DNA of 64,000 nt. It comes from Kribbella pratensis (GTDB lineage Bacteria > Actinomycetota > Actinomycetes > Propionibacteriales > Kribbellaceae). The stretch covers positions 248,001 through 312,000 of the forward strand of contig NZ_SODU01000003.1 of assembly GCF_004366075.1 (NCBI RefSeq). The letters are read 5' to 3'. Shown piece by piece: positions 33,109 to 44,191 of the stretch (positions are counted from its first letter, which is position 1; each line of letters begins with the position of its first letter). The notes under the pieces were generated by a model. That model did no database searches. It saw only the letters and a program-made list of their open reading frames with translations, and was not told where the DNA came from. The position numbers were made by a program, and so were the translations under genes.

Positions 33109-34071
33109 ATGCGCGCACTAGTAGCCCGCCGGCTGGACGGGCCGGATGCGATCGAACTGATCGAGACCGACGTACCTGAGCCGGCCGCGGGGCAGGTACG
33201 GATCAAGGTGGCCGCCGCCGCGGTCAATCCCGTCGATCTGGCGGTCAGTGCCGGGATGCCGGTGGAGTTCGGCCTGACTGCCGCGAGGCAACAGTTCGGC
33301 CTCGGCTGGGACGTCGCCGGCACCGTGGACGCCGTCGGGCCGACCCAGAACGATGGCCGGAAAACCACGCGCGGAGGCCGGCTTCGCATCGGGGACGCGG
33401 CGGTCGGAGTTGCGGACCTGCTCGGGCGCGATCTCAAGACTCATGCGGAGTACGTAGTCCTGGACGAGGAAGCCGCGACGTCGGTGCCGAGGAAACTCGC
33501 CTTGACCGAGGCCGCGACCTTCGGGCTCAACGGCCTGACAGCGCTGCAGGCGATCAAGGCGCTCGAGCCTGAGCCAGGTCAGACGCTGTTGGTCACCGGA
33601 GCCGCAGGAGGAGTGGGCGGGTACGCAGTAGAAATTGCGAAGTACCTCGGCCTGACCGTCATCGCTGCCGCCAGCGCGCACGACGAGGAACTGGTGCGGC
33701 TGATGGGCGCGGAACACTTCGTGGACCGGTCGCAGGACCTAGCTACAGCGGTACGGCGGATAGCGCCGGGCGGCGTCGACGCCCTGGTGGACGCAGCGGT
33801 CGTCGGTGTCGGCGCCCAGGAGGCTGTGCGCAACGGCGGCCGCCATGTGCACCTACAAGGAGGACCGCGCCCACCACACCTCCGAGGGATCAGCGTGAAG
33901 CAGCTCTTCGTGCAAGCGAATCGGAGTGACTTGGAGGAACTGGTGCGACTGGTCGACGCAGGACCGCTCTCGACTCGCGTCGCGGACGTTCACCCGCTCA
34001 CGGAGGCCGCGGCCGCCTACAAGCGCCTGGCTGGGGGCGGTGTGCGCGGCAGGCTGGTGCTGGTGCCCTAA
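33109..34071 (+). CDS. Zinc-independent quinone oxidoreductase (MDR family)
   Basis: NADPH-dependent oxidoreductase (320 residues) of the medium-chain dehydrogenase superfamily. GroES-like N-terminal domain: [28 protein letters not shown]. Cofactor domain: [22 protein letters not shown], the AAGGVG NADP motif. Zinc ligands are missing, which points to quinone or enone reduction. ATG 33109 follows GAGGAGAGA. HxlR with a conserved cysteine opposite suggests induction by quinones or electrophiles (inference). It overlaps the convergent response regulator by four bases. Confidence 0.92.
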
Positions 34072-34733
34072 GCGGTAGCGCTCAGCTCGGACTTGATCAG
34101 ACCGAGGCGCAGCCCGGCCATGATCGCGTTGGCCCGGTTCGTCGCTCCGAGCTTGTCGTAGAGGCGGGACACGTACGTCTTGGCCGTCGACAGACTGACA
34201 AACATCGAGGCCGCGATCGCCGGCACCGAGTGCCCACTGGCCAGCAACGACAGGACTTCCTGCTCCCGCGGGCTGAGCGCAAGAGTGGTGACCGGCCGCG
34301 GGGCAACCTGCCCGCGTCGGGCGAGAGCCGATGCGAGACCGGTCGCGGTGAAGGACGCGGCCGCCACCGCAGCGTGCCGGATCGCCCCGAGCACTTCCGC
34401 GTTCGGGGCGGTCTTGCCCACGAACGCGGACACCCCGGTCTCCAGGGCCCGGAACAGGACGTCGTCCTCGTCGTGCGACGTGAGTACGACGATGCCCAGT
34501 GCCGGATGCCGGTCACGCAACTCACGGGCGAGCCGAAGGCCGTCAGCATCCGGCAGCACCACGTCGAGGATAACTACATCAGGGAGCGCGGCCGCGATCT
34601 GGGCCGGCGCCTCTGCGGCGAGGCCGCACTCACCGACGATGCTGATCTCGGAGTCGGCGCTGACCAGCCGGATCAGTCCGTACCTGGTCAATGTGTGGCC
34701 GTCGATGACTACGACCGTGATCGGCTTGCCCAT
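34068..34733 (-). CDS. NarL/FixJ-type response regulator (orphan)
   Basis: A 221-residue two-component regulator. The receiver domain covers 1-120 with the phosphoacceptor Asp57 (VVILDVVLPD), the Thr/Ser switch in VVLTSHDED and Lys in FVGKTAP. The LuxR-type HTH covers about 150-210: LALSPREQEVLSLLASGHSVPAIAASMFVSLSTAKTYVSRLYDKL. No histidine kinase lies next to it. It is last in direction after the type IV pilus genes (158 bases beyond the prepilin peptidase) and could control them, or be a separate unit. Confidence 0.93.
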   Translation of the reverse strand: MGKPITVVVIDGHTLTRYGLIRLVSADSEISIVGECGLAAEAPAQIAAALPDVVILDVVLPDADGLRLARELRDRHPALGIVVLTSHDEDDVLFRALETGVSAFVGKTAPNAEVLGAIRHAAVAAASFTATGLASALARRGQVAPRPVTTLALSPREQEVLSLLASGHSVPAIAASMFVSLSTAKTYVSRLYDKLGATNRANAIMAGLRLGLIKSELSATA

Positions 34734-34891: not shown

Positions 34892-35662
34892 TCAGGCGAG
34901 GAGCGCCTCGTACCACGCGGACAGCGGGCCCGCGGCGAAGACGGCGAGCAGGACGCCGGCAATCATGAACGGCCCGAACGGAAGCGCGGTCTTCCGGCCA
35001 CCGCGCCCAATCCCCATCACCACAAGGCCGACGGCCGCACCGAGCACGAAGGCCGCGAGGGCACCGACCAGCAACGCCTGCCATGAGAGGTACGCCAGTA
35101 CGGCGCCGACGAGGCCGGAGAGCTTGACGTCACCCCAGCCCATCCCCGCCGGGTACGCCACCGCCAGGAGCAGGTAGAACCCGAACAGCGCCGCCCCGCC
35201 GATCACAGCCCGTATCAGCGCCCGCCCGTCGTGGTCCCACGCGGTGGCGCCGACGAGCAGCGCCAGCAGAATCGGGTACGACGGCGCCACGATCGCGTTC
35301 GGTAACCGTCGTACGTCGAGATCTATCAGCGCGAGCGCCACACCGGCTCCGGTGAACCAGAGGTACGCCGGAAGCGCGGCAACCGTGTCGAGTCGCAGGG
35401 CGATCGCGCTGAACAGGAGGCCGGTCGCGAGCTCGACGAGCGGATACCGCACGCTGATCGGCAACCGGCAGTCCGCGCATCTCCCCCGCAACATGATCCA
35501 CCCGATCACGGGCACGTTGTGCCTGGGACGCACGAGACTGCCACACCGCGGGCAGTGCGACGGCGGATTCACCACCGACTCGCCTCGCGGCACCCGGTAG
35601 ATCACCACGTTCAGGAACGACCCGACGGCCAGTCCGAGCAGCCCGGCGAACAGCGCGATCAT
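34892..35662 (-). CDS. pilD: Type IV prepilin peptidase
   Basis: A 256-residue A24-family membrane aspartyl peptidase that removes leader peptides from prepilins and N-methylates the new terminus. The cytoplasmic loop carries two CxxC pairs (Cys37/Cys40 in HCPRCG; Cys62/Cys65 in RCADCR). The catalytic Asp motifs are LALIDLDVRRLPN and GMGWGDVKL. Eight hydrophobic segments. ATG 35662 overlaps the PilX-like stop (ATGA); a TTG 15 bases further up is less likely. It serves the prepilins encoded in the same operon. Confidence 0.95.
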   Translation of the reverse strand: MIALFAGLLGLAVGSFLNVVIYRVPRGESVVNPPSHCPRCGSLVRPRHNVPVIGWIMLRGRCADCRLPISVRYPLVELATGLLFSAIALRLDTVAALPAYLWFTGAGVALALIDLDVRRLPNAIVAPSYPILLALLVGATAWDHDGRALIRAVIGGAALFGFYLLLAVAYPAGMGWGDVKLSGLVGAVLAYLSWQALLVGALAAFVLGAAVGLVVMGIGRGGRKTALPFGPFMIAGVLLAVFAAGPLSAWYEALLA

Positions 35663-37788
35663 CCCGGCCTCGACCAACTGAGCACAGTCACCTGCCGATG
35701 CCCTGGACTGGGGGCCATCGGATTACTGTCCACAAGGGCCACCTTCGATCGCAGCACCGGCGCCCCACCGGTCGAACACGGTCCCGCACCGGAGCAGATG
35801 TACGCCGACAAGTACAAGCTGAAGACAAACCCGGGCGAGTCGTCAGGCACTTCGATCACCACACCGCCATAGGAGAAGCTGCCGGTCTCCTTGATCCACA
35901 ACGACCTGGAGACGACCCCGAACCGGAACACCTGTTCAGCCGCGTTGTTGAGCGTGATGTCCAATGCGGCCTTCGGCGTGTACGTCGTTCCCTGAACGTA
36001 GAACTGGTTGCCGGATTGGTTCGGTGTCGACACCAGGGCACAGCTCGTACTGCCGGTTCCGGTGTACGGCCCGGTGCGGACACATCCGCTGCCGGCCCGG
36101 AAAGCCGGCGGCGTGAACTTCAGCTCCAACTGCAGCGCGTCGATGTCCAGCAGATCGGTTTTGGCCGGGTTGGCGAGGTTCGGCGTCATGGTGATCGTCG
36201 CGCCGCTGAAAGTCCCCTTGTAAATGGCATCTGCGATCGCGCCGGTGCGAGCAGCGTCGAGCGGGATCAGGTCCGTGCGGAAGGCTCCGCTGTTCGCCGG
36301 GATCGTGATCGAATCACCGACGGTCAGATTCGAAGGCTTGACCTTCAGCGTGACATCGAACTTCTCCGTCGAGGCCGGATCGCTGTGCCGATGAACGACC
36401 TTGACCGCTGCGGACTGCAGGACCGATCCGGCCGGCACCGCGCTCGGCGGGACGAAGCCGTCGACAGTCATGACCGTCGAGTCGTTCTTGCTCGTGCTCT
36501 TCCAGGTGGCGAACCCAGTGTTGTCGATGGCGGACAAGCTCGACGGGGTCGCCGTGACGCCGAATCCGCCCGCCCTGCTCACGGCGTCGAGCTTGAGTGC
36601 GCTTGCGTCGGCCCACGCCGTCGGCGTCTCCGATCCCGACGACAACCCGTACAGAGCCACCGGCGCTGCGTTGGAGTCGTACGTCCCGCAGAGCTCGGCC
36701 TGTGCGGCCCTGACGGCCAGTTGGCTCTCGCCGCCGAAGATGAACTGCACACCGATCGCGTTGCCGTTGTTGATCGGGTTGTCGCACGACCCCGGGATGG
36801 TCGGTCGCACGGGCGGGGTGGAGATGATCGCGCCTGCGGAATTGACCGGCGTACCGGCGACCAGGTAACCGTTGTCGACGGTCCAGACGTCGCCACCGTT
36901 GGAGTTCAGCAACGGGTTGGCGTTGTCGCCGCTGTTGTGGAAGTCGAAGTAGTACACGCCGGTTGCCGCCGGCTTGCCGCTCCCGTCGTACACCGGCGGG
37001 AACCAGAACGTACTGCCCTTGCACGAGCTGCTGGAGCTCATCATGTCGGACAGGCCCTTGGCGTCGTCGTAGTACCCGGGCTCGAAGCGGATCACCGAGT
37101 TCGGCGTCGTACAGCTCGGAAGTGTCCGGTGCGGCAAGCCTGCTATCGACGCCGCCGGCAGATAACCCGGGTCGTCCCCGAGCGGATTGCTCGCTCCGCC
37201 GATGTTGCAGTCCGCCGCCGGAACGGCCTGGATCGTGCCCGCGCAGCTACCACGCGCCCAGGCGTTGGCGTTGGTGTTCAGCGCTCCGTTCACCACGTTG
37301 ATGTTGGAGTTGGAGAACACGTTGCCGTGAACCCGGAAGGTGGAACCGGTCGGCTGCTGGATGTTCAGTCCGTCCTCTCCGGAGATCTTGCCCAGGGTGA
37401 GGATGGCATTGCCGGGCCGGTTGCACTGCGAGAGCGACGGGCACTGGATGAGCACCTTCTTCGGGTCGGCCGTGCAGGTGACCGCGGCTGAGCTCGATCC
37501 GTAGAAGCTACTCAGCTGAAGAGTGTCGCTCGCGCCGAAGCAGTGTTGGCCGGCGTTGTGGTTGTAGGTGCTGTTGCGGAGGTTGTTGATCGCGGCCTGC
37601 ATTGCGCCGTCGGCGTTATAGGTGTCGGCGACCTGGTCGCGCAGGCCGACGGTGGTGCGCACGCTGGTGTCCGAGAGGTTGAGCAGCGCGGTCAGGCTGA
37701 GCGCGACCACAGTGATCACGATCAGCGCCAGGACGAGCGCAGCGCCTTCGTCGCCGCGAGCGCGGGCGCGCGCGATGCGATCTCTCAT
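35659..37788 (-). CDS. Giant PilX-like minor pilin / pilus-tip protein
   Basis: A 709-residue protein. The N-terminus (RGDEGAALVLALIVITVVALSLTALLNLSDTSVRTT) is a PilX-type pilin helix with possible cleavage at EG|AAL. The rest is exported. About 120-260 reads like short beta-helix turns (GEDGLNIQQPTGSTFRVHGNVFSNSNINVVNGAL). A second beta-sandwich domain covers about 430-560, and many Cys could form disulfides. Typical PilX proteins are about 200 residues, so this is an unusually large one that could display an adhesin at the pilus tip (inference). Coupled by ATGA on both sides. Confidence 0.85.
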   Translation of the reverse strand: MRDRIARARARGDEGAALVLALIVITVVALSLTALLNLSDTSVRTTVGLRDQVADTYNADGAMQAAINNLRNSTYNHNAGQHCFGASDTLQLSSFYGSSSAAVTCTADPKKVLIQCPSLSQCNRPGNAILTLGKISGEDGLNIQQPTGSTFRVHGNVFSNSNINVVNGALNTNANAWARGSCAGTIQAVPAADCNIGGASNPLGDDPGYLPAASIAGLPHRTLPSCTTPNSVIRFEPGYYDDAKGLSDMMSSSSSCKGSTFWFPPVYDGSGKPAATGVYYFDFHNSGDNANPLLNSNGGDVWTVDNGYLVAGTPVNSAGAIISTPPVRPTIPGSCDNPINNGNAIGVQFIFGGESQLAVRAAQAELCGTYDSNAAPVALYGLSSGSETPTAWADASALKLDAVSRAGGFGVTATPSSLSAIDNTGFATWKSTSKNDSTVMTVDGFVPPSAVPAGSVLQSAAVKVVHRHSDPASTEKFDVTLKVKPSNLTVGDSITIPANSGAFRTDLIPLDAARTGAIADAIYKGTFSGATITMTPNLANPAKTDLLDIDALQLELKFTPPAFRAGSGCVRTGPYTGTGSTSCALVSTPNQSGNQFYVQGTTYTPKAALDITLNNAAEQVFRFGVVSRSLWIKETGSFSYGGVVIEVPDDSPGFVFSLYLSAYICSGAGPCSTGGAPVLRSKVALVDSNPMAPSPGHRQVTVLSWSRPG

Positions 37789-38417
37789 TGCTGCCTCCGC
37801 TGACCGTTGAGGGTGATCGGGTAGTCGCCGACGGATGCCCGCGTGACCCGGAACGTCACCTTCACCTGGTCCGGTACGTCGGTGCTCTCGCAGTCACTCG
37901 AACAGGTCACAGCGAGACTCCCGGGCTTTACGTTGTGCGCGAGGACGACGTCTGTCCCGGTGATCGCGGGACCAAGGCACTTGATCCGGTGCAACTCACT
38001 CACGGCACCGACCGGTTTCAGGTAGTACGCGACGACATTGGTGGCGGCGTCCTGCATCGATACCGCTGGATTCCATGCGTCCGAGAGCAACCGCAGTGCG
38101 GCGGTCGTCGAGCCGCAGGTGTATCCGCCGGCGTTGTACGCCGCGTTCAGCTGCACCGATTGCCTGAACGGCACCGAGTCTCCGTTGATCGCGGCCCAGT
38201 CCCGCAGGCCGAGCTCGGCGACGTCACGAGCGAAGTACGACGAACTGATCTGGGCGTCGTGCGACAGTTCCAGCCGGTCGGAGGTGTCGGTGGTGTTCCG
38301 GAGGGCACCGATGACGACGTTGGCCAACGGCACCGTGATGATTGCGAGGATCGCCACCGCGAGCATCAGTTCGACCAGGGTGAATCCGGCCTCGGTGCGG
38401 GTTCTGCGGGTCAGCAT
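37785..38417 (-). CDS. Prepilin, PilW-like minor pilin
   Basis: A 210-residue minor pilin. Prepilin signal RTEAG|FTLVELMLAVAILAIITVPLANVVIGAL with cleavage after Gly11 and Glu5 of the mature chain. The mature domain contains pairs of cysteines (YTCGSTT, IKCLGP, TCSSDCES) likely to form disulfides. ATG 38417 follows GGAGACG and overlaps the upstream gene by seven bases. Confidence 0.9.
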   Translation of the reverse strand: MLTRRTRTEAGFTLVELMLAVAILAIITVPLANVVIGALRNTTDTSDRLELSHDAQISSSYFARDVAELGLRDWAAINGDSVPFRQSVQLNAAYNAGGYTCGSTTAALRLLSDAWNPAVSMQDAATNVVAYYLKPVGAVSELHRIKCLGPAITGTDVVLAHNVKPGSLAVTCSSDCESTDVPDQVKVTFRVTRASVGDYPITLNGQRRQQ

Positions 38418-38860
38418 GACGTCTCCAGTCCGCACGGCTTCCGCAGTACGACGTCCACGCGCTCGGTGGCCCGACCGTCGTCACTGGCCACCTGGACCGT
38501 GAGTTGCTGAAGCCCGAGATCCGTGGTGCAGCTCGACTGCCATGCGCTGCCGGACCAGTACCGCATCGAGCCGGTCACGACCGTCGGGGTGAATCCCGCC
38601 GGAGTGGTGAAGCCGGAGTGCGATTGGTACCAGGAGCTCGTCCCGCAAGCCTGGTAGTTGCCTGTAGCAACCGCAGATTGGATCGCCTCGGCGTAGTCAC
38701 GGACCGCGGTGCCTGCGGTCGATTGTTTGCGATGGACATCGGAGACCAGCACGCTGGTCACCAGGCCGGCCATGATGGCGACCACCGCGATGCCCATGAT
38801 CGCGACCGCGATCAGGACCTCCAGCAGCGATTCGCCCTGCTCTCCGCGGGGGCTGGTCAT
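38411..38860 (-). CDS. Prepilin, PilV-like minor pilin
   Basis: A 149-residue minor pilin with leader TSPRGEQG|ESLLEVLIAVAIMGIAVVAIMAGLV. The first mature residue is Glu rather than Phe, and the Glu of LLEV is kept. The mature part has four Cys (QACG, SSCTT, KPCG, ETSC). The ATG overlaps the PilC stop (ATGA). Likely part of the pilus-initiating minor pilin complex. Confidence 0.88.
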   Translation of the reverse strand: MTSPRGEQGESLLEVLIAVAIMGIAVVAIMAGLVTSVLVSDVHRKQSTAGTAVRDYAEAIQSAVATGNYQACGTSSWYQSHSGFTTPAGFTPTVVTGSMRYWSGSAWQSSCTTDLGLQQLTVQVASDDGRATERVDVVLRKPCGLETSC

Positions 38861-40062
38861 GTCTGGACCTGGCGGAAGATGCCGTACATCGCCGAGACCA
38901 GCGCGACCGCGACGAAGCCCACGATGAGGCCCATGACAACGATCACGAGCGGCTCGAACAGGCCGATCAGCTTCTTCAGCTTGTAATCGAGCTCGCCCTC
39001 GTAGTACTCGGCGGTGACTTCCAACTGGGTGTCCAGCGTTCCGGTGTCTTCGCCGACCCGCATCATCTGGGCCGCCGTCCTGGGAAAGAGCTTGGTCGCG
39101 GCCAGGGGCCGGGCCAGACCCTCTCCTTCCAGGAGGGCCTCACTCGCTATGCCGAGGGAGCGCCGGAAGACAAGATTCGGGAGAGAGCCGGTGGCCACCC
39201 GGAGGGCCTCGGGCAGCTGCACTCCGGCGCCCACCATCGACGCCAGGATGCGGCAGAACCGTTCGACGAGTGCGAACTGGATCGTGTTGCCCAGCACAGG
39301 CAGAGCGAGGAACAGCTTGTCCCGCGCATAACGGCCGCCGTGGGTCTGCACCACGCCGAGGATCAGCAGGGCGAAGAGTGCGACGCCACCGCCGACAGCC
39401 CACCACCATGCGGTGAAGAAGTCTGTTATCGCGAGCAGCATCCGGGTCGGCAGGGGCAGTGTTGCATGCAGGCTGTCGAAGAAGTCCTTGAAGCGGGGCA
39501 GGACGAACGCGGCCAGTACGACCACCGTGACCATCGACATCACGGCGACGATCGACGGGTAGATCATGGCCTGCTTGACCTTGCGACGGGCCTCGAGGTC
39601 GCGTTCCAGGTACTTCGCCAGTTGCCCGAGCACCGTGTCCAGCTGACCGCTCAGCTCCGCGGAGCGGAGGATGCCGCGGTAGTACTCAGGGAAGATCTTG
39701 GGATGGCGGTCGAAGCAGTCCGACAGCTTCTCGCCGCCGCGCAGCCCGTGCTCGACCTCGGCCATCATGCGGCGTACGGACGCGTTGTCGGCCTCCTCGC
39801 CGAGCGAGTGCACGGCGTCGATCAACGGCAAGCCGGCCCTGATGAACGCGCCCAGCTGGCGGGACAGGTGCATGACCTCCTCGCGCTTCACCCGGCGCGG
39901 GGTGATCTCCAGCTGCAGGAGGCTGCGCTTCTCGGTGACCCGGATGTCGCGCAGCTCGCGCTCGTAGAGAGCGAGCTCCGCATCCTCACGGCTCTCCGCC
40001 TTGGCGGTGCCCTTCGCGACCTGGCCGTCCGGCGCGATCGCGACGTACGCGAATCTGGTCAT
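38857..40062 (-). CDS. pilC: Type IV pilus inner-membrane platform protein
   Basis: A 401-residue GspF/PilC platform protein with two T2SSF domains: about 67-190 (LSRQLGAFIRAGLPLIDAVHSLGEEADN, RSAELSGQLDTVLGQLAKYLERD) and 270-395 (FCRILASMVGAGVQLPEALRVATG, MRVGEDTGTLDTQLEVTAEYYEGEL). Membrane spans are at about 170-190, 220-240 and 375-395. It couples the PilB/PilT motors to pilin insertion or removal. It starts three bases after the pilB stop. Confidence 0.95.
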   Translation of the reverse strand: MTRFAYVAIAPDGQVAKGTAKAESREDAELALYERELRDIRVTEKRSLLQLEITPRRVKREEVMHLSRQLGAFIRAGLPLIDAVHSLGEEADNASVRRMMAEVEHGLRGGEKLSDCFDRHPKIFPEYYRGILRSAELSGQLDTVLGQLAKYLERDLEARRKVKQAMIYPSIVAVMSMVTVVVLAAFVLPRFKDFFDSLHATLPLPTRMLLAITDFFTAWWWAVGGGVALFALLILGVVQTHGGRYARDKLFLALPVLGNTIQFALVERFCRILASMVGAGVQLPEALRVATGSLPNLVFRRSLGIASEALLEGEGLARPLAATKLFPRTAAQMMRVGEDTGTLDTQLEVTAEYYEGELDYKLKKLIGLFEPLVIVVMGLIVGFVAVALVSAMYGIFRQVQT

Positions 40063-40065
40063 CGG

Positions 40066-41700
40066 TCAGCTCCCGACCATGTAGATGGAACGCATGACCT
40101 CGCCGACGGTGGTGATGCCCTGCTCGACCAGCCGGACGCCTTCCTCGGTGAGGGTTCTCATGCCCTCGTACCGCGCCACCTTGCGGATCTCGTCGTGCGA
40201 GGCACGGTCGACGACCAGCTCACGGATCGCGTCCGATACCGGCATCAGCTCGTACACACCGGTCCGCTCCAGGAAACCCGTCTGGGCGCAGAAGTTGCAG
40301 CCCGCGCCGTGCAGGAAGCCGTCTGCCGGACTCGCGCCACCTGCACTGGCAAGGAACGCGAGCTCCTCGGCCTTCGGTTCGTAGTACTCGCGGCAGTTCG
40401 TGCAGACCCGTCGTACTAGACGCTGGGAGACCACAGCCGTCACCGAGGATGCGATGAGGAAGGTCTCGATCCCCATGTCCAGCAGTCGGTGCAACGCGGT
40501 CGCGGCGTCGGTCGCGTGCAGCGACGAGAGCACGAAGTGGCCGGTGAGCGCGGACTGTACGGCGATCCGCGCGGTCTCCACGTCGCGAACCTCGCCGACC
40601 AGGATCACGTCGGGGTCCTGCCGCAGGATCGATCGCAGACCGCCGGCGAACGTGATGCCGGCCGCCTCGTTGATCTGGATCTGGTTGATCGAGTCGAAGG
40701 TGTACTCCACCGGGTCCTCGATCGTCATGATGTTGCGCTCAGGGCTGTTGATCTCACCCAGCGATCCGTAGAGCGTCGTGGTCTTGCCGCTGCCGGTCGG
40801 TCCGGCGCAGATGACCATGCCGTACGGCGCTCTGAGCAGGCCCGAGTACGTCGCGGCCATCTGGTCCGGCATCCCGAGCTGCTCGAGCCGGAACAACGGC
40901 CGGCTCTTGTCCAGCAAGCGGAGTACCACCTTCTCGCCGCCGACCACCGATGTCGTGGAGACCCGGATGTCGACCGGCCGCCCCTCGACGTCCATGCTGA
41001 TCTGGCCGTCCTGCGGACGTCGACGCTCGACGATGTTGAGGTCGGCCAGGATCTTGATCCGGCTGACCACCGCCGGGCCGATCGACCCTGGCAGCTCGAG
41101 TACGTCGTGCAGCGCACCGTCGATGCGGTAGCGGACGCGGACGCGGTCGCCGTGCGGCTCGATGTGTACGTCGGACGCCCGGTCACGCAACGCCTGGGTG
41201 ATCACCAGCTGGACGACCTGCACGACGGGCGCGTCGTCACTGGCCCCGGGTGCATCCTCGCGGAAATCCTTGCGAACCGCGTCGCGAGCCTCGAAGACCT
41301 TGACCCGGTCGTCGATACCGGTCAGCGCGCGGTACGCCGTACCGATCGCATGCAGGACGTCGCTCGGCGCCGCGAGCTTGACGATCACCCGCCGGCCGAG
41401 TGCGGATTGCAGATCCTCGACGACCGACGGGTCTGCCACGGCGACCGTGACGACGTCGTCGCGGACCTCGAGCGGTACGGCGACCAGACTGCGTGCCGTG
41501 TGCTCGTCGATCAGGGCTGCGGCGGTCGGGTCAGGGCTGGCTGTGCGCAGGTCGACCAGTTCCAGGTTGTACTGCTCGGCGAGGTGACGAGCCCTGGTCC
41601 GTTCGATGTGCAGGTCTTGTTCGGTCGCGGCGGGGAGAACCTCGGGCCGCAGGTTCGGCGCGGCGTGCCGGGCTTCGGGGGCGGCTTTGCGGAGCTTCAT
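40066..41700 (-). CDS. pilB: Type IV pilus extension ATPase
   Basis: A 544-residue GspE/PilB hexameric ATPase that drives pilus assembly. The N-terminal MshEN domain (about 25-135) is followed by the motor domain: Walker A GPTGSGKTTTLYGSL (about residue 300), Asp box ERNIMTIEDPVEYTF, Walker B ILVGEVRDVETA and His box LHATDAATALHRLLDMG. The C-terminal zinc site has CTNCREYYEP and GCNFCAQTGFLERTGVYEL. The ATG overlaps the pilT stop by four bases. Confidence 0.96.
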   Translation of the reverse strand: MKLRKAAPEARHAAPNLRPEVLPAATEQDLHIERTRARHLAEQYNLELVDLRTASPDPTAAALIDEHTARSLVAVPLEVRDDVVTVAVADPSVVEDLQSALGRRVIVKLAAPSDVLHAIGTAYRALTGIDDRVKVFEARDAVRKDFREDAPGASDDAPVVQVVQLVITQALRDRASDVHIEPHGDRVRVRYRIDGALHDVLELPGSIGPAVVSRIKILADLNIVERRRPQDGQISMDVEGRPVDIRVSTTSVVGGEKVVLRLLDKSRPLFRLEQLGMPDQMAATYSGLLRAPYGMVICAGPTGSGKTTTLYGSLGEINSPERNIMTIEDPVEYTFDSINQIQINEAAGITFAGGLRSILRQDPDVILVGEVRDVETARIAVQSALTGHFVLSSLHATDAATALHRLLDMGIETFLIASSVTAVVSQRLVRRVCTNCREYYEPKAEELAFLASAGGASPADGFLHGAGCNFCAQTGFLERTGVYELMPVSDAIRELVVDRASHDEIRKVARYEGMRTLTEEGVRLVEQGITTVGEVMRSIYMVGS

Positions 41701-42791
41701 GCCGGCACCCCCGCCCGCAGCCGCGGCCGCGCCTCGACGTCCTTCGGGTAGAGGCTGCGCGCGACGGCGTCGTCGTACGTGATGACGCCGTTCTGCACGA
41801 GCGTCGACAGGGACTGTTCGAGGGTCAGCATCCCGTCGCGCTGACCGGTGACGACCGAGTTGCGCAGCTGGTGCGTCTTGCCTTCCTTGATCAGGTTGCG
41901 TACGGCGGCGTCGGCGACCATCACCTCGTACGCCGCGATCAGGCCACCGCCGATCCGTGGAATCAGCCGTTGGTACACGACTCCGGTCAGCGCGGCTGCG
42001 AGCTGGACTCGCACTTGGGCCTGCTGCTCGGCCGGGAAGACGTCGATGATGCGGGCGAGCGACTGCGCGGTGTCGTTGGTGTGCAGGGTCGCGAAGACCA
42101 GGTGGCCGGTCTCCGCGATGGTCAGGGCGAAGCGGATCGAGTCGAGGTCGCGCATCTCGCCGACCAGCAGTACGTCGGGGTCCTCGCGCAGCGCCGAACG
42201 CAGCGCGTCCGAGAAGCTCGCGGTGTCGCTGCCGACCTCGCGCTGGTTGACCGCGGAGAGCTTGTGGTCGTGGACGTACTCGATCGGGTCCTCGACGGTG
42301 ATGATGTGGCAGGCGCGGTCGGTGTTGATCTGGCCGATCATCGCGGCCAGGGTCGTGGACTTGCCGGAGCCGGTTGGGCCGGTGACCAGGACGAGGCCCT
42401 GGTGCTTACGTGCGAAGTCGTAGAGGACGGGCGGCAGGCCGAGTTCGTCCATGGTCGGGATCTGGCGCGGGATCATCCGGAGCGCGACCGCCGTGTCACC
42501 GCGCTGGGTGAAGGCGTTGCCGCGGATGCGGGCCTCGTCGCGCCAGGAGAACGAGAAGTCGTGTTCGTGCTTGGTGTTCCAGAGTGCAGCTTGCTCGGCG
42601 GTCAGGACTTCGCCGAGAAGGACGTCGGTGTCGTCGCGGGTGAGTGGATCCAAGCCGTTGACGGAGTACAGGCGTCCGTGGACGCGGAGCTGTGGTGGCA
42701 TGCCCGCAGTCAGCAGGAGGTCGGTGCCGCCGGCGTTCCAGAGCTCTTCGAGCAGCAGGTCGACCCGGCTGCCACGAGCAAGACTGATCAT
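41697..42791 (-). CDS. pilT: Type IV pilus retraction ATPase
   Basis: A 364-residue PilT-type ATPase: Walker A VTGPTGSGKSTTLAAMIGQIN (about residue 140), Asp box HIITVEDPIEYVH, Walker B LLVGEMRDLDSI and His box FATLHTNDTAQSLARIIDVFP. The C-terminal region has RLIPRIGGGLIAAYEVMVAD, close to the PilT family AIRNLIRE motif as AVRNLIKEGK. Its presence implies retractile pili, with twitching or DNA uptake possible. 84 bases separate it from the upstream pilin gene. Confidence 0.95.
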   Translation of the reverse strand: MISLARGSRVDLLLEELWNAGGTDLLLTAGMPPQLRVHGRLYSVNGLDPLTRDDTDVLLGEVLTAEQAALWNTKHEHDFSFSWRDEARIRGNAFTQRGDTAVALRMIPRQIPTMDELGLPPVLYDFARKHQGLVLVTGPTGSGKSTTLAAMIGQINTDRACHIITVEDPIEYVHDHKLSAVNQREVGSDTASFSDALRSALREDPDVLLVGEMRDLDSIRFALTIAETGHLVFATLHTNDTAQSLARIIDVFPAEQQAQVRVQLAAALTGVVYQRLIPRIGGGLIAAYEVMVADAAVRNLIKEGKTHQLRNSVVTGQRDGMLTLEQSLSTLVQNGVITYDDAVARSLYPKDVEARPRLRAGVPA

Positions 42792-42875
42792 GGTGCTTCT
42801 CCAGGTAGTTGGTGTACGGCGTGGAACCGGCGGGGAAGGGCCTTGGCGAACCCCTCCCCACCGGAGTTCAGATGG

Positions 42876-43232
42876 TCAGCAGGCGCCGCCGCCAACCAGC
42901 ACGCCACTGACGCTTCCGTCAGTGTTCGTGTAAGTGATCGTGTAGTTCGTCGCCGACGGAACTTCCTTCAGGAAGCCCTTCGGGGTCGCGGTGACCAGCA
43001 GACCGTTGATGTCGGTCGCGTACTTGGCGTACTGGGCGAAGTACGCCTCGGACGCCACCTCGACGTTCTTCACATCGGCCTTGCAGGCCGACTTCTTGCC
43101 GGTGTCGGTAATGCCGCCGACGGCGAAGACGACCACGCCGGCCAGGATGCCGAGGATGATGATGACCATCAGGAGTTCGATCAGGGTGAAGCCGGATTCG
43201 TTCTTGCGGGCTTCGCGGATTCGGTTGAGCAT
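42876..43232 (-). CDS. pilA: Major type IV pilin candidate
   Basis: A 118-residue prepilin: leader LNRIREARKNESG|FTLIELLMVIIILGILAGVVVFAVG with cleavage after Gly14, Glu5 conserved. The mature domain is short, with one Cys after the helix (KKSACKADVKNVEVASEAYFAQYAKY) and a C-terminal Cys, allowing one disulfide. The compact size resembles Gram-positive type IV pilins. It stands first among the structural genes, with short non-coding gaps on both sides, consistent with strong, partly separate expression. Confidence 0.92.
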   Translation of the reverse strand: MLNRIREARKNESGFTLIELLMVIIILGILAGVVVFAVGGITDTGKKSACKADVKNVEVASEAYFAQYAKYATDINGLLVTATPKGFLKEVPSATNYTITYTNTDGSVSGVLVGGGAC

Positions 43233-43280
43233 GATGTGATTCGCTTTCTGTGCAAAGGATTTGATGGATGTGAGGCGGTG

Positions 43281-44042
43281 CTACGCGGAGGGCGGATCGC
43301 GGCTGCACCTCCCATCACTCGCGACCAGGACGTCGGCGAACTCGCGCACGGCCTGGCTGACGGGGTGGTCCGGGTAGCCGACGGTGATGGGCTCGCCCCG
43401 GTTGATGGAGGCGGGTACGTCGGTCCAGTTGGGGAGCTGGACCGTGATCGGAGTCCTGACCAGCTGGTCCACGTCGGCCGCGGTCAGATCGGCCCGACGG
43501 TCCGACCGGTTGACCACGACCGACCGAGCGCTCGCGTCGTACAGGAGGTCGAGGACGTCGAGCGTCAGCCGCAGGTTCTTCAGCGACGGCCGCTCCGACG
43601 TCGCGACCAGCACCTGGTGGTCGGCCGCGTCCAGCGCCGCGAGTACGGACGCGTTGAACTGCGCCGGCGTGTCGACGACCACATAGTCGTACGCATCACG
43701 CAGTACGGGCAGGAGTTCGTCGATGAGGGTTTGCGGGATCTGCATCGCGTTGCCAGGACCTGTCGGAGCCAGCAGGCAGTCCAGGCCCGGGCGGAACGGC
43801 GTCATCAGCCCAACCGCTTGTTCGCTGGTCAGGCGTCCTGCCCACGGCAAGGCGTCGCACAGGCTGCGCGCCGGACGCAGGCCGAGGATGCAGGCGACGT
43901 CGCCGAACTGCAGGTCCAGATCAACCAGGCAGACGCGGCGGGTGCCCAGGGAGCTCAAGGCGACCGCAAGGTTCGTGGCGACAGTGGTCTTGCCACTGCC
44001 GTCCTTGGCCGCGAAGACCGTAATGATCCGCCCGTCTGACAT
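43281..44042 (-). CDS. MinD/CpaE-like ATPase of the pilus locus
   Basis: A 253-residue ParA/MinD-superfamily ATPase with deviant Walker A FAAKDGSGKTTVATNLA, then VCLVDLDLQFGDVACIL and YVVVDTPAQFNASVL (switch II). It lacks the receiver-like N-terminal domain of classic CpaE. CpaE-type ATPases belong to Tad pili; here the neighbours are PilB/PilT-type, so it may position this type IV pilus machine. First gene of the presumed operon, 48 bases before the pilin. The 149 bases upstream hold no gene and no promoter I can name. GGCTCGCCCC-side C-terminus RCSRDPPSA looks unusual. Confidence 0.88.
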   Translation of the reverse strand: MSDGRIITVFAAKDGSGKTTVATNLAVALSSLGTRRVCLVDLDLQFGDVACILGLRPARSLCDALPWAGRLTSEQAVGLMTPFRPGLDCLLAPTGPGNAMQIPQTLIDELLPVLRDAYDYVVVDTPAQFNASVLAALDAADHQVLVATSERPSLKNLRLTLDVLDLLYDASARSVVVNRSDRRADLTAADVDQLVRTPITVQLPNWTDVPASINRGEPITVGYPDHPVSQAVREFADVLVASDGRCSRDPPSA

Positions 44043-44191
44043 CCCGACCCCCTGACGCCACCCTGTGTCACCGCATTGCGCGTTGACCTCGCCTAAAGAG
44101 TGGCGGTGCAGCGGATTTCGTCACAGCGGGTGAACGGATGACAGGCCACATCGTTCGGATGACGTGGTGTCAGCCGAACGGCTGACAGGGA

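Follow-up and report, generated by a model that had tools for sequence, protein, structure and literature searches.

A PilT-bearing type IV pilus locus without PilM, PilN and PilO in Kribbella pratensis, headed by an ATPase gene of Tad origin

Introduction

The proteins PilM, PilN and PilO are held to be both essential and diagnostic for type IVa pili (T4aP), those of monoderms included. They are essential in Streptococcus sanguinis and feature in descriptions of monoderm T4aP, the actinobacterial pili that were studied being of the Tad type (PMC6916266). The Com pili of Firmicutes have no PilM/N/O and no replacement for them, and assembly by the ATPase and the platform alone has been argued for these pili (PMC10191384), suggesting that PilM/N/O may have no more than a machine-stabilising role. 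Many actinobacterial systems were left as 'generic' by the largest survey (PMC6668835).

Here, we analyse a pilus locus of Kribbella pratensis found in the window, that is, the whole stretch of 64,000 nucleotides under study. The first-pass annotation had suggested that its ATPase might replace PilM/N/O, which would be an undescribed arrangement for a monoderm pilus, and no description of such a locus, nor of a PilT-bearing lineage devoid of PilM/N/O, was found in the literature searched, most subscription journals lying outside that coverage. Similarly, no experiment demonstrating pili in Kribbella was found in this literature.

Results

Nine pilus genes of the 8.39-Mb genome, all on the minus strand, occupy positions 34892-44042 of the window in the order MinD-like ATPase, pilA, pilT, pilB, pilC, the minor pilins V, W and X, and pilD. 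The first-pass annotation had proposed a nine-gene retractile-pilus locus here, and all nine genes were recovered with Pfam or NCBIfam support. The first gene of the operon (43281..44042) codes for a 253-aa ATPase of the MinD/ParA superfamily (Pfam AAA_31/CbiA). It is followed by a pilA-like major pilin gene (42876..43232), recognised by N_methyl and the class III signal GFTLIELLMV, and by the retraction ATPase gene pilT (41697..42791), whose product scores 448 bits against TIGR01420 (cut-off 319). Both GPTGSGKS and AVRNLIKE are unbroken in PilT, the latter closely resembling the PilT retraction motif AIRNLIRE. The pilB/gspE-type extension ATPase (40066..41700), identified by NCBIfam matches and by its clade in the PilB tree, has unbroken Walker A and two CxxC motifs, and the pilC/gspF-type platform protein (38857..40062) was assigned from T2SSF and the PilC tree. 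The top NCBIfam matches of PilB, PilC and the pilin are GspE (541 bits), GspF (316 bits) and GspG (47 bits), all under cut-off. The extension ATPase and the platform also score 255 bits against ComGA (cut-off 300) and 126 against ComGB (cut-off 240), respectively.

The minor pilins V (GspI/PilV-like, 38411..38860) and W (GspJ/PilW-like, 37785..38417, with an alternative start at 38435) carry N_methyl and have weak matches, to gspI/pilV for the former and of the GspH/I/J type for the latter. Minor pilin X (35659..37788) is a large GspK/PilX-like protein of 709 aa, a putative tip protein conserved across families, with a weak GspK match confined to residues 14-76. The prepilin peptidase gene pilD (34892..35662) closes the locus; its product matches A24_N_bact and Peptidase_A24, and its two CxxC, GWGDVK and DLDVRRLPN motifs are unbroken. 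ATGA overlaps are found at four junctions (pilT/pilB, pilC/V, W/X and X/pilD), V and W overlap by 7 nt, and 3 nt separate pilB from pilC; the wider gaps are those of minD/pilA (48 nt) and pilA/pilT (84 nt). A NarL/LuxR-type response regulator gene (34068..34733, minus strand) adjoins the locus, as it does the MinD-less and Tad versions.

The absence of PilM/N/O, noted initially for the window alone, holds for the whole genome in profile searches. No PF11104 (PilM) match above noise was obtained genome-wide with a model that gives actinobacterial PilM proteins 54-135 bits. For PilN, the best genome-wide values were E 0.05 with PF05137 and E 0.004 with a profile of our own, both noise, and PilO, which was searched with our own profile, gave no match in the genome. 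The sole PilM-profile match here is weak and corresponds to MreB (486 bits, TIGR00904); a weak signal of this kind is seen in almost every genome, the MreB identity being established for the K. pratensis one. A merely local absence can thus be dismissed by the whole-genome search, and hidden copies by two Pfam models and three own-built profiles. PilN and PilO could escape profiles through fast divergence; PilM diverges more slowly, and every gene of the locus has been assigned.

Our three profiles were built from canonical loci of the same order and run on 67 PilT-bearing genomes, which are all those found in the order. PilM, PilN and PilO were detected together in the same 26 of the 67 genomes, and these are exactly the ones with another PilT lineage (26/26), about 40-55% identical to the PilT of the window. 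None of the three was present in the 41 genomes carrying only the window's own lineage, defined by about 71% identity or more (0/41, Fisher p 4e-19).

The gene order pilA-pilT-pilB-pilC-V-W-X-(pilD) recurs in Nocardioides, Pimelobacter, Amycolatopsis, Lentzea, Kutzneria, Labedaea, Actinokineospora, Actinoplanes and relatives, while the more distant members in Kineosporia and Acidimicrobiia keep PilB and PilC in other arrangements. No PilM/N/O gene lies within reach of any of these loci. When PilM alone was searched in the whole genomes of 18 named strains with the locus, it was missing from 14; the four positive genomes belong to Actinoplanes and Kineosporia, where PilM is part of a separate canonical pilBTC-A-D-MNO locus. 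Among the records screened, one named Streptomyces sp. SID13031 (L143) agrees with a Kribbella genome (G027) in gene content and is probably misnamed, and two contigs labelled Bifidobacterium breve (L158 and L167) are MAG contigs whose label is probably wrong, L158 having an Acidimicrobiia-like pilus locus.

In the PilB tree the lineage forms one clade (100/100), apart from the canonical actinobacterial PilB (100/98), and a quick version of the PilC tree concurs with a single clade (support 100). Against type II secretion, T4aP and T4bP sequences, the backbone of both trees is unresolved and the branches are long, the trees having been built without Com (ComM) sequences. Kribbella PilB groups with Pseudonocardiaceae and Micromonosporaceae (96/90), rather than with the Nocardioidaceae that belong to its order, a placement suggestive of horizontal transfer.

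Within the genus, 23 loci are patchily distributed over 20 of 38 genomes. PilT accompanies the extension ATPase and the platform in all 23. The combination seen at first pass recurs only in part: PilM/N/O are missing from every Kribbella locus, and the MinD-like ATPase is found in just 9 of the 23, the other 14 having neither. The two kinds of locus mostly lie at or beside the same chromosomal site. A MinD-like ATPase is likewise missing from the loci of this clade found in Nocardioides, Amycolatopsis, Lentzea and Actinoplanes. The gene directly ahead of pilA differs among these, being a GGDEF-like protein gene in Lentzea and, in Amycolatopsis and Actinoplanes, genes for small proteins that look secreted (L106, L115, L147; L103, L107, L110). 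Since 14 of the 23 Kribbella loci and the loci of four other genera have neither the ATPase nor PilM/N/O, the absence of the latter is the older and wider feature and the ATPase the later, optional one; the ATPase thus appears to have joined the locus after PilM/N/O had been lost or were lacking.

With 76.6 bits, the ATPase falls below the cut-off of the MinD equivalog model (212.9). It had been described as an ATPase of the CpaE kind, and this stands for the ATPase domain, which the tree puts in the CpaE clade. The receiver-like N-terminal domain of CpaE/TadZ is absent: the ATPase domain begins at residue 5 of the 253 aa, whereas the Tad relatives have 373-400 aa with the domain starting at about 134. 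Its relatives are CpaE proteins of full length, encoded in Tad loci. All pilA-linked ATPases (Kribbella, Actinokineospora, Labedaea, Kutzneria) lie on one side of a branch supported at 94/95, slightly under the threshold applied, and are nested among Tad CpaE; there was probably a single recruitment, common to Kribbella and Pseudonocardiaceae. The N-terminal domain was lost in the Kribbella and Actinokineospora copies, while a longer one is retained in Labedaea and Kutzneria. The pN/pS of the ATPase is near the values of the minor pilins and below 1, and no membrane-targeting helix or partner is visible for it.

As proposed at first pass, neither CpaF nor Flp is encoded in the locus; CpaF-type ATPases do exist elsewhere in the genome, which has three Tad-type loci (L054, L055, L056); a CpaE homologue of the Ssd type is present in one of them (330 bits, TIGR03815). 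In two other genomes of the genus (G035 and G026; L168 and L171), a Tad locus stands where the pilus locus would be, between PucR-type and LuxR-type regulators, and pilus systems thus appear to be exchanged at this chromosomal slot. Moreover, CpaE-type ATPases are associated with type IV pili in a second case (L073:15302-17236): a further genome of the order has a canonical locus in which a protein of 645 aa, its ATPase domain being CpaE-like, is encoded beside the pilin genes. In G027 (L052:5585-8593), a whole ATPase gene survives ahead of a locus of the MinD-less type, its own pilus genes being deleted with a remnant of the pilA start still visible.

Upstream of the ATPase gene, alignment revealed a promoter-like block, GTTCACCCGCTGTGAC (44120..44135, minus strand), present once per pilus locus and seen also in the pilA promoter of MinD-less loci, and a palindrome, TGTCAGCCGTTCGGCTGACA (44168..44187, minus strand), a possible regulator site seen in the sequence and the alignment. 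The block CGTTCACCCGCTGTGACG and the palindromes are common to both kinds of Kribbella locus, upstream of the ATPase gene or, if this is missing, of pilA, so the ATPase gene sits between the promoter and pilA. Towards its 3' end, the ATPase gene contains a 23-nt element, GGGAGGTGCAGCCGCGAYCCGCC (43291..43313, minus strand), near-invariant in all nine intact loci, with synonymous positions mostly fixed too. It was not found elsewhere in the 38 genomes, shows two changes in G027, a genome with pilA lost, and is possibly a control element for pilA. No Rfam match indicating a riboswitch was obtained ahead of pilA in the MinD-less loci.

Finally, the PilB proteins of the lineage differ in their N-terminal region. 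The ATPase of type II secretion uses its N-terminal domain to bind the PilM homologue; in Thermus, PilMN stimulation of PilF depends on the last GSPII domain, whereas binding does not (PMC6325625). The catalytic domain is preceded by 180-210 residues in Nocardioides, Lentzea and Actinoplanes, 150 in the window type and 113 in Amycolatopsis; several MinD-less Kribbella PilB have only 43-46 or 6, their start being fixed by the ATGA overlap with pilT. ComGA of the Com pilus has a comparably short N-terminus, judged by how long its NCBIfam model is (267). PilB thus appears eroded in the region where PilM would act.

Discussion

We consider it likely that the locus encodes a minimal, Com-like, PilT-retractile type IV pilus that belongs to a distinct lineage in actinomycetes and works without PilM/N/O, with the ATPase as a non-core, optional add-on regulating position or number. 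On the gene content, PilB and PilC would polymerise the GspG-like major pilin without any PilM/N/O complex, the three minor pilins would prime assembly, PilD would process the pilins and PilT would retract the pilus. In the Kribbella/Pseudonocardiaceae lineage, a CpaE gene of a Tad locus would have been taken up next to the promoter, its product would then have shed the N-terminal domain, and the gene would later have been lost from many Kribbella loci. CpaE/TadZ sets where or how many Tad pili are built and, by analogy, the recruited ATPase would most likely set the place or number of the pili.

A published evolutionary scenario reportedly has a PilT-bearing, PilMNO-lacking stage preceding the split of Com pili and T4aP. 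The lineage might then never have had PilM/N/O and represent this stage surviving in actinomycetes, building and retracting surface pili with only PilB, PilC, PilT, PilD and pilins, which we regard as rather unlikely.

The first-pass annotation had suggested that the ATPase might replace PilM/N/O as a positioning or alignment factor. The gene is indeed the first of the operon, under a conserved promoter block, and is retained by nine genomes of Kribbella and by three Pseudonocardiaceae; whether TadZ, a CpaE relative, could substitute for PilMNO in Tad pili has also been asked in a review (PMC6916266). However, the majority of the clade's loci have neither the ATPase nor PilM/N/O, and a Tad-derived ATPase younger than their loss or absence makes such a substitution, as an assembly or alignment factor where the gene is present, decidedly improbable.

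The Gsp-type best matches of PilB, PilC and the pilin would fit a secretion-like pseudopilus with PilT rather than a surface pilus, but PilT, with its unbroken retraction motif, stands beside the extension ATPase and the platform in every Kribbella locus and no partner of the GspL/M or PilM/N/O type exists, so we hold this reading to be very improbable. That the locus is decaying and non-functional in the window strain deserves hardly any credence: its P-loop reads KDGSGKTT where every other Kribbella copy in the alignment has KGGCGKTT, and the locus is patchy in the genus, yet all nine frames are open and dN/dS against the nearest relative is 0.06-0.08 for PilT, PilB and PilC and 0.16 for the ATPase.

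A widespread pilus clade that has PilT and lacks PilM/N/O makes it directly testable whether retraction needs PilM/N/O. Similarly, the closely related versions at one site, with and without the CpaE-type ATPase, would allow its role to be tested in a pilus that does not need it; if the gene was recruited only once, the Kribbella loci without it amount to natural deletions.

Comparison with known systems

Among the core components that define T4aP, the locus has PilB, PilC, a class III major pilin, a prepilin peptidase and PilT, and lacks PilM/N/O. With the T4aP of monoderms (S. sanguinis and the canonical actinobacterial loci) it shares PilB, PilC, PilT, PilD, class III pilins and I/J/K-like minor pilins, but the window genome has no PilM/N/O, and its PilB and PilC belong to separate clades. 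Type II secretion systems give the best family scores for PilB, PilC and the pilin, but the locus has PilT and no secretin, GspL or GspM. The MinD-like ATPase nests among CpaE (TadZ) of Tad/Flp pili, whereas CpaF, Flp and TadB/TadC are missing from the locus. Like the Com pilus of Firmicutes (ComM), the locus encodes an ATPase, a platform, pilins and a peptidase as its core and lacks PilM/N/O, any replacement for them and any other membrane sub-complex, but it carries PilT, which Com does not.
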